Shown here in pieces: positions 9,607 to 11,662 of a DNA stretch of 37,008 bases; within the stretch, counting starts at the first letter, position 1, and every line of letters starts with the position of its first letter. The position numbers and the translations under genes were made by a program. This DNA comes from a virus, in IMG/VR virus record IMGVR_UViG_3300033997_000086, positions 1 through 37,008 of that record. The stretch is one strand, 5' to 3'. The notes under the pieces are model-generated. The model was not told the DNA's origin, ran no database searches, and worked only from the letters and a program-made list of their open reading frames with translations.

Positions 9607-9849
9607 ATGAAGCTAGTCACGCTGGAGAAGTGGGCAGAAGCCCACCTTGACCCTGTGCCGTCGCCCGCAACCCTGCGTATGTGGGCCAGAACGAGTCGCT
9701 TTGACCCGCCAGCGCGGAAGGTGGGCCGTAGCTACCGGGTGGACGAAAACGCGCGATACTGCGAACCTGAGCGGCCTGTGAACCTGCCCCAGGACAACTC
9801 GCTGCTTAGCCGCATGATGAGGGATCACTATGGCACCCAGGCCGCGTAA
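9607..9849 (+). CDS. xis: Excisionase
   Basis: A lambda Xis-type recombination directionality factor (80 aa). It has the typical start MKLVTLEKWAEAHL, the winged-helix segment PATLRMWARTSRFDPPA and PARKVGRSYRVDENARYCEP. Family members bend attachment-site DNA and steer the integrase toward excision. It overlaps the integrase gene by 20 bases, as in many lambdoid phages, which supports translational coupling. AGAGGTGAGCG precedes the start. Confidence 0.88.
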   Translation: MKLVTLEKWAEAHLDPVPSPATLRMWARTSRFDPPARKVGRSYRVDENARYCEPERPVNLPQDNSLLSRMMRDHYGTQAA

Positions 9850-10924
9850 AACTGGATCCAAAGACCTCCCGCCAAACCTGTACCGCAAGAAAGACAGCCG
9901 CAACGGCATCGTCTATTACAGCTACCGCAACCCCACCACTGGCAAAGTCTACGGCTTGGGCACCGACAAGGAAGCGGCCATAGCTCAGGCCGTCATCGGC
10001 AACCACTCGATGTTCGCCAGGCCAGAGCTTGCAGAGCGCATGGATAGGCCTGCCAAGCACGCGTTCGGCAAGTGGCTGGCCGAGTACAGCAAGATCATCG
10101 AAGACCGGGAGATTGAGGCGCAGACCCGCCGCAACCTGCGGATGCGGATCAAGCGGCTTGATGCGGAGTTCGGGAAGCACGACATCAGTGCCATCAGCAC
10201 GCTCATGATCGCGGACTACTTGGGCGGCATGGCCAAGGCGGGCAAGGCGCAGATGAGCAGAGCCATGCGCTCGCTGCTGCGTGACGTGTTCATGGAGGCA
10301 ATGGCGGCAGGCTGGGCGTCGTCGAACCCGGTAGAGGTGACAAAGGCGGCCAAGGTCAAGATCAAGCGAGAGCGCCTGACCCTGGATATGTGGCGGGCGA
10401 TTCATGCCAGGGCGCGTACGGACTGGCTGAAGCGTGCGATGGAGCTGGCGCTGATTACCGGCCAGCGGAGGGACGATATCGCCTCGATGCTGTTCAAGGA
10501 CGAGCAGGACGGCTATTTGCATGTCGTGCAGAAGAAGACCGGCCAGCGGCTGCGGCTGAGCACGGCTATCGGCCTGCAGTGCATCGGCCTGGATCTGGCC
10601 GGCGTAATCCGGCTGTGCCGCGACAACGTAGTGTCAAAGCACCTGATCCACCACCCGAGGACGATCAGCCGAGCCAAGGCCGGCAGCCCCATCGTTCTGG
10701 ACACGATCAGCAAGGCCTTTGCCGACGCGCGAGACGCTGCCGCAGAGGCCGGGGAGATCACGCTGACCGACAGCCCGCCAACCTTCCACGAAATGCGCTC
10801 CCTTGCCGCCCGCCTGCACGACGCAGAGGGCCGGGACGCACAGGCGCTGCTCGGCCATAAGTCCGCCCGAATGACTGAGCTTTACCGCGACAGCAGGGGC
10901 GCCGAGTGGATCGACGTGGCGTGA
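9830..10924 (+). CDS. int: Tyrosine integrase (lambda Int type)
   Basis: A site-specific recombinase (364 aa; lambda Int is 356). Residues 1-60 form the arm-site-binding domain (LPPNLYRKK, YYSYRNPTTGK, LGTDKEAAI). About 75-170 is the core-binding domain, and 180-364 the catalytic domain. Visible catalytic residues are Arg213 (ITGQRRDD), His320 and Arg323 (FHEMRSL), His343 (LGHKS) and nucleophile Tyr352 (ELYRDSRG), a complete R-H-R-H-Y set. It integrates phage DNA by recombining attP with a host site. GAGG lies eight bases before ATG 9830. The gene is convergent with the late operon and points to the candidate attP. Confidence 0.96.
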   Translation: MAPRPRKTGSKDLPPNLYRKKDSRNGIVYYSYRNPTTGKVYGLGTDKEAAIAQAVIGNHSMFARPELAERMDRPAKHAFGKWLAEYSKIIEDREIEAQTRRNLRMRIKRLDAEFGKHDISAISTLMIADYLGGMAKAGKAQMSRAMRSLLRDVFMEAMAAGWASSNPVEVTKAAKVKIKRERLTLDMWRAIHARARTDWLKRAMELALITGQRRDDIASMLFKDEQDGYLHVVQKKTGQRLRLSTAIGLQCIGLDLAGVIRLCRDNVVSKHLIHHPRTISRAKAGSPIVLDTISKAFADARDAAAEAGEITLTDSPPTFHEMRSLAARLHDAEGRDAQALLGHKSARMTELYRDSRGAEWIDVA

Positions 10925-10943
10925 ACATTACGAGGAACTGAAA

Positions 10944-11426
10944 ATGGCAAGACCGAGAATTCATGTCCTTCCGCAGAATCTCTACACGTCGAAAGGCTAC
11001 TATCGATACAAGAAATCGGACGGCACAGAGGTTTACCTAGGTGCAGACAAAGACGCCGCGATCAAATTCGCCTTGCACGCGAACCTGCACAGGGCGAATG
11101 GTTACGCACGCAGGCCGAACGGGGTCAGGACAAGGCTGAAAGAATTGCTTGACCACGAGCATATCGTTTCCCTTTGCCAGCCTTACTCTCCTTGTGTAGG
11201 CGTCTATTTCCTCATTTATGAAGAGAAGATCGTGTACGTTGGCCAGGCGACTAACTGCCACAGCAGGATAAGCTCTCATGCTGCCGGAAGGGAGATGAAG
11301 CTTTTTGATTCCTTCTACATAGTCGAATGCCCAGCGCACAAGCTTGATGAGCTTGAAGCACTTTACATCCGCAAGTTCTTGCCGCCACTGAACAAGCTTA
11401 TGAGCGGCGAAAGATATGTCTCTTGA
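10944..11426 (+). CDS. GIY-YIG nuclease fused to integrase arm-binding domain
   Basis: A 160-aa protein 20 bases after int, with its own ribosome site (GAGGAACTG). Residues 1-55 closely resemble the arm-DNA-binding domain of lambda-type integrases: LPQNLYTSKGYYRYKK then LGADKDAAIKFALHAN, parallel to LPPNLYRKK and LGTDKEAAIAQA in the integrase next door. Residues 84-155 are a GIY-YIG endonuclease: GVY at 86-88, YVG at 98-100, Arg108, His112, catalytic-type Glu138 and Asn150 in PPLNK. GIY-YIG domains cut DNA and normally borrow a separate binding domain for specificity. Here the domain suggests targeting of attachment-site arm sequences. Biological role unknown; it may be a homing-like or competitor-excluding enzyme. 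Confidence 0.8.
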   Translation: MARPRIHVLPQNLYTSKGYYRYKKSDGTEVYLGADKDAAIKFALHANLHRANGYARRPNGVRTRLKELLDHEHIVSLCQPYSPCVGVYFLIYEEKIVYVGQATNCHSRISSHAAGREMKLFDSFYIVECPAHKLDELEALYIRKFLPPLNKLMSGERYVS

Positions 11427-11429
11427 CTG

Positions 11430-11593
11430 GCATTTTGCAGAGATTTTGGAGATGATTTTGGGATGAGATTTTATGACTTCTAAATCAATGACTTACACCA
11501 TCTACGGCATCAAGGCCTGGGACACGGTGTAGGTTCTGGATTTTCCCATGTGAATCAATGCTTTGCGCTGATTTTTTACCATGTAAAAGCGTC
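11430..11593 (+). other. attP: Candidate attP with arm repeats and host-gene-like core
   Basis: An AT-rich segment, unlike its surroundings, directly after the integrase/GIY-YIG genes. Left arm: imperfect direct repeats of GATTTTGG(G)ATGA at about 11442, 11454 and 11467, plus a related CATTTTGCAGA at 11431. Right arm: GATTTTCCCATG (11539) and GATTTTTTACCATG (11570). Between them is a sequence that translates as MTYTIYGIKAWDTV-stop (ATG 11489-TAG 11532), matching the start of ArsC/YffB-family proteins. Inverted repeat TACACC 11494-11499 with GGTGTA 11526-11531 flanks part of it. The layout fits a lambda-type attP; core limits are inferred. Confidence 0.65.
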
Positions 11594-11637
11594 TCCTGAA
11601 GCAGCGTAGGAATCAAGCATGTAGGCATGGTTTTGGG

Positions 11638-11662
11638 GAAGAAAAGCCCGCGCTAGGCGGGC
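11638..11662 (-). terminator. Late operon terminator
   Basis: On the minus strand GCCCGC pairs with GCGGGC (11646-11651 with 11657-11662, five-base loop), followed by a TTTTCTTCC tract. It lies 19 bases beyond the stop of the last late gene and would end the whole leftward late transcript. It is nearly identical (15 of 17 stem-loop bases) to the terminator at 12985-13012. Confidence 0.85.

Follow-up and report, generated by a model that had tools for sequence, protein, structure and literature searches.

The window analysed here, the whole of a viral DNA stretch of 37,008 nucleotides, derives from a Pseudomonas-type phage and contains, in this order, an excisionase gene (xis), an integrase gene (int), a gene encoding a fusion of two domains, an array of P' arm-type sites and the attP core (Table 1). 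An identical order was found in L002, a Pseudomonadaceae MAG (UBA836), where it runs into an intact bacterial gene and thereby identifies the attP core. From the reading of its sequence, we take this bacterial gene to be arsC/yffB-like. The first-pass annotation of this DNA had placed the fusion gene by int and attP, and this placement holds, with xis and int directly upstream of the gene and attP directly downstream.

Table 1. Features of the integration region, numbered from the first nucleotide of the window
Feature	Position	Strand	Evidence
Excisionase gene (xis)	9607..9849	+	PF07825 (E 1e-14), phrog_629
Lambda-type tyrosine integrase gene (int)	9830..10924	+	PF09003, PF00589; lambda Int structures (E 1e-64)
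Fusion gene, 160 aa: N-terminal integrase-type arm-binding domain, linker, C-terminal GIY-YIG nuclease (predicted)	10944..11426	+	ORF, Pfam, PDB, model
Arm-binding domain, residues 8-60	10965..11123	+	PF09003 (E 3e-7); 1kjk (E 6e-4); best-conserved part of the protein
GIY-YIG nuclease core, residues 85-150 (GVY, YVG, R108, E138, N150)	11196..11393	+	PF01541
P' arm-type array, three sites: CATTTTGCAGA, GATTTTGGAGA, GATTTTGGGAT	11431..11464	+	Matrix from other clades
attP core region, matching the start of the presumed arsC/yffB-like bacterial gene	11482..11525	+	Common to the L002 prophage/chromosome junction
Probable arm-type site across the core (TTTTGGGGA)	11631..11639	+	Strict consensus match

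Organisation of the locus

The P' array begins 4 bp past the stop codon of the fusion gene and consists of TTTTGG-type sites which follow each other in steps of 11 and 12 bp. Its score was reached by none of 1000 shuffles. A strict arm-site consensus, built from phages that lack the fusion, occurs only twice on both strands of the 37-kb window, at positions 11444 and 11631, where the two occurrences flank the core. Across the carriers, the start codon of the fusion gene is located 17-42 bp after int and the gene is therefore probably co-expressed with it.

Domain architecture of the fusion protein

Both domains that the first-pass annotation had assigned to the protein were recovered in the Pfam profile search, where domain calls were judged against the curated cut-offs and both exceed them. 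The arm-binding domain (PF09003, Arm-DNA-bind_1) scores 30.8 bits against a cut-off of 22, and the GIY-YIG domain (PF01541, residues 85-147, E 6.4e-6) scores 26.8 bits against a cut-off of 22.6, with the match covering positions 2-74 of the 78 in the profile. PF01541 was also found above its cut-off in the L002 and L088 fusions. In the same Pfam search, the fusion ORF gave no match to AP2 or to the tyrosine recombinase catalytic domain PF00589, the latter being present in the neighbouring int.

A sequence search of the PDB matched the protein to the N-domain of lambda Int (1kjk). The AlphaFold2 model of the protein is of low confidence (pLDDT 58) and served for the domain layout only, in which three strands and a helix (residues 13-52) are followed by linker helices (59-77) and a GIY-YIG arrangement (86-144). 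In Foldseek, this low-confidence model aligned with 1kjk at a TM score of 0.80 by target length and 1.6 A, and its nuclease half matched the GIY-YIG domain of UvrC. By profile and fold match, residues 8-60 are of the lambda Int arm-binding type.

Residues R108, E138 and N150 were observed to be invariant in the alignment of the three fusion lineages, and the roles of these conserved arginine, glutamate and asparagine motif residues are taken from previous work (PMC2988022). The GIY box varies only at the I/V position, being GVY in the window fusion and GIY in its relatives. By its domain and motif residues the ORF is a member of the GIY-YIG superfamily and a predicted nuclease. Conservation within the fusion is highest in the arm domain (68-76%, against 47-61% in the nuclease), and the dN/dS of the gene is about 0.13 for the window-L002 pair.

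Chance similarity is ruled out by the two curated profile matches together with the conservation in three lineages. A recent duplication of the 5' end of the neighbouring int is unsupported because the arm domain is equally far from the neighbouring Int (43% identity over 46 columns, BLASTP E 2e-5) and from lambda Int (42%). A known defence gene was also considered and rejected, as the PADLOC matches involve only the nuclease-domain part of the candidate families.

Relatives of the fusion

Besides the window, only two other lineages were found to carry the fusion, and both domains are kept in their full-length relatives. The L002 fusion is 63% identical to that of the window, and the fusions of four viral contigs (L087-L090) are about 45% identical to it; L082 and L096-L099 are further fetches of the L087-L090 contigs, with L082 corresponding to L090. 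One of these contigs, L088, matches DNA of Pseudomonas phage PS-1 at 95.5% over 21% of the query. Orthologues, which the first-pass annotation had suggested looking for, are located beside int in other phages, at the same insertion point. No more full fusions were found in viral contigs, cultured phages, plasmids and Pseudomonadaceae or Gammaproteobacteria genomes. A survey of 274 Gammaproteobacteria genomes turned up PF09003 in nine integrase-length frames and only once in the fusion, which indicates that the architecture is rare. Our literature searches found no published description of an arm-domain/GIY-YIG fusion, in agreement with the first-pass annotation, which knew of no described example. 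The fusion is a real and rare architecture in a revealing position.

A single insertion point between int and the arm sites

A total of 88 int loci were classified, comprising related ints of viral contigs (61-85% identical) and the cultured-phage loci LESphi3 and LPPA33. In 29 of these loci int runs straight into the arm sites, seven carry the fusion (one contig being counted twice, as L082 and L090), four have other genes after int and the remaining 48 end at int and are uninformative. All three fusion lineages have the gene inserted at the same point, past the int stop codon and ahead of the arm-site array. In loci without the fusion, 10-13 nt separate the first base of the int stop codon from the start of the first arm motif, and successive sites are spaced at 11 bp, except for a single step of 10 in L060; in carriers, the fusion gene fills the gap between stop codon and first motif. 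Most of the informative int relatives lack the fusion, and so do the close relatives L060 and L007. The fusion is an optional gene which is present or absent at one site among close relatives.

The four loci with other genes fall into two kinds. In L008 (5104-6805) and L038 (5107-7221), three related genes whose family was not recognised occupy the int-attP gap on the opposite strand. In L022 (5120-5620) and L057 (5114-5596), another gene without a known family (161-167 aa) directly follows int, also on the opposite strand. None of these cargo genes gave a PADLOC match.

We also noticed that GTGGCATAAT terminates int in 27 of the 29 loci which run straight into the arm sites. The corresponding stretch at the int stop codon (positions 10916-10926 in the window) is altered in the window as well as in L002 and all four loci with other cargo. 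GTGGCATAAT has the look of a -10 box, from which the bacterial gene might be expressed in lysogens.

Arm sites and the specificity of the arm domain

The arm arrays were scored with a matrix derived from non-carriers of other clades. Carrier arrays scored 31.1, 26.3 and 19.8, the non-carriers scored 31.6-42.9, and each carrier array was observed to score below its matched non-carrier. This weakness could reflect self-protection or relaxed constraint and is suggestive only, given that non-carriers seeded the matrix and that the carriers comprise no more than three lineages.

The first-pass annotation had proposed that the fusion targets the same arm sites as Int, which is only a conjecture. The arm domain resembles the neighbouring Int no more than it resembles lambda Int, and in the alignment the beta-sheet residues differ systematically, with YRYK...EVYLG in the fusions and YxYRxP...xxGLG in the neighbouring Ints, so that an identical site specificity is unproven.

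The altered arrays of the carriers, the arm domain being the best-conserved part of the protein and the start codon located shortly past int would be compatible with a role in regulating integration or excision, in which the arm domain would compete with Int or Xis at the arm sites and the nuclease would be secondary or would nick DNA to help recombination. We consider this explanation quite improbable, as the nuclease motif residues are retained and the close relatives L060 and L007 do without the gene. An aid to excision, one of the functions that had been suggested for the fusion, likewise lacks specific support since the gene is missing from most of the informative relatives.

Evidence for mobility

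On the Int tree, carriers and non-carriers are interleaved inside one clade, and L002 (a carrier) and L060 (a non-carrier) form sisters at 100/100. Among L087-L090, a group of Pseudomonas phages, the fusion DNA is 99.6-100% identical, with 0-2 of 498 bases differing, whereas the adjoining ints are only 91-93% identical (differing at 7-9%). This contrast between gene and int is significant (Fisher p about 3e-11), and a near-identical fusion beside diverged ints therefore shows recent movement between diverged phages. The near-identical tract runs without a break from 60 bp before the end of int through the fusion gene, and it extends over the arm array where this is readable (L088 and L089). 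However, non-carriers share the identical terminal 60 bp of int, and the tract alone therefore does not separate homing from ordinary recombination. Across the three lineages, the divergence of the fusion roughly equals that of int for window-L002 and exceeds it for L087-L090. This between-lineage divergence is as compatible with a long-standing association and repeated loss as it is with transfer. An unusual DNA-level constraint on the 3' end of int as a cut target was also considered and rejected: among 76 distinct ints, the last 24 codons were ordinary except for the last four.

Several considerations count against homing, among them the divergence of the gene between lineages and the sheet residues that differ from those of the neighbouring Ints. 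Ordinary homologous exchange between conserved flanks could be the source of the identical tract, and the int-attP gap may simply be a cargo slot because four related phages carry unrelated genes there. The fusion would then be cargo of this slot, as an example an unrecognised defence gene, which is moved by ordinary recombination in its flanks and whose target on DNA has nothing to do with attP. The recombination flanks could be the att core and the conserved 3' end of int. We regard this as rather improbable. The arm domain of the fusion is of the integrase type, the orientation and spacing of its gene resemble those of an xis-int operon member, and no known defence family matched it specifically. 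Nor did PADLOC recognise the other cargo.

A proposed homing-type endonuclease as the best explanation

The explanation that we favour, to which we give about an even chance, is that the fusion is a free-standing homing-type endonuclease of temperate phages whose arm domain targets int-attP regions without the gene. The fusion gene would be co-expressed with xis-int, and the arm domain would recognise the arm-site region of an int-attP that lacks it. The nuclease would then cut near the int/arm junction, and repair from the carrier phage would copy the fusion gene together with its flanks. Insertion of the gene places it between the end of int and its arm sites, and self-protection may be reinforced by the weaker arm arrays that carriers have. 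The fusion has the architecture typical of phage homing endonucleases, with DNA binding at one end and the nuclease at the opposite end, and co-conversion of the flanks is likewise typical of these enzymes (PMC10448857, PMC2988022). Of the functions offered in the first-pass annotation, homing is the most supported, by the polymorphism at one point and the near-identical copies beside diverged ints, while the activity itself is what we infer. The pattern of spread suggests a selfish gene which copies itself into related phages at the region that controls integration.

The nuclease might instead be a competition weapon which destroys or blocks the attP of superinfecting phages with the same integration site, the gene being kept for the benefit of the phage and not through homing. 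The gene adjoins attP and encodes an integrase-type targeting domain, and the weaker carrier arrays would fit self-protection here as well. The two explanations are hard to tell apart by sequence because their biochemistry overlaps, but the gene is rare and patchy and its near-identical copies in different backgrounds are what homing would be expected to leave, and we therefore consider a weapon unlikely, if worth keeping in mind.

If homing is correct, the arm-site reading module of an integrase has found a second use in directing a nuclease to that same control region, which would link site-specific recombination with homing. It would also provide a concrete route by which temperate phages with a common integration site compete or exchange att regions. 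Furthermore, the fusion would be a compact natural nuclease with a DNA-reading domain of a structurally solved type.

A possible HNH counterpart

A metagenomic phage ORF (L100, positions 116-556) joins an N-terminus reading MARPRIHD...LGADKD to an HNH nuclease (PF01844, E 8e-13). Pfam reported no PF09003 match in L100 at E up to 1, and its putative arm domain is assigned from a 38% tblastn match to fusion residues 1-86 and the alignment. A related int was not found on the L100 contig. We tentatively propose, as a possibility somewhat short of even, a class of homing nucleases which use an integrase arm domain as the targeting module, exist in GIY-YIG and HNH versions, have the region that controls recombination in temperate phages as their homing site and co-evolve with the arm sites.

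Comparison with known systems

The AP2 domain and the arm domain are both sheet-type readers. The fusion resembles the HNH-AP2 homing endonucleases of phages (PMC10448857) in combining a phage nuclease with a small DNA-binding domain, but it differs from them in the nuclease, the domain order and the DNA-binding family. Residues 8-60 resemble the arm-binding domain of lambda Int (PF09003; 1kjk and 2wcc) in sequence and predicted fold, whereas the nuclease replaces the core-binding and tyrosine-recombinase domains of a lambda-type Int. Like the free-standing Seg family of T4 and the intron-encoded I-TevI, the fusion combines a GIY-YIG nuclease with a separate DNA-binding region, and like the T4 GIY-YIG homing endonucleases it is an optional phage gene whose flanks move along with it (PMC2988022 for T4). 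Unlike I-TevI, where the nuclease is N-terminal, the DNA-binding domain of the fusion is N-terminal and of the integrase arm type. Unlike both Seg and I-TevI, the fusion is located at the int-attP of a temperate phage, and for it homing is only predicted.
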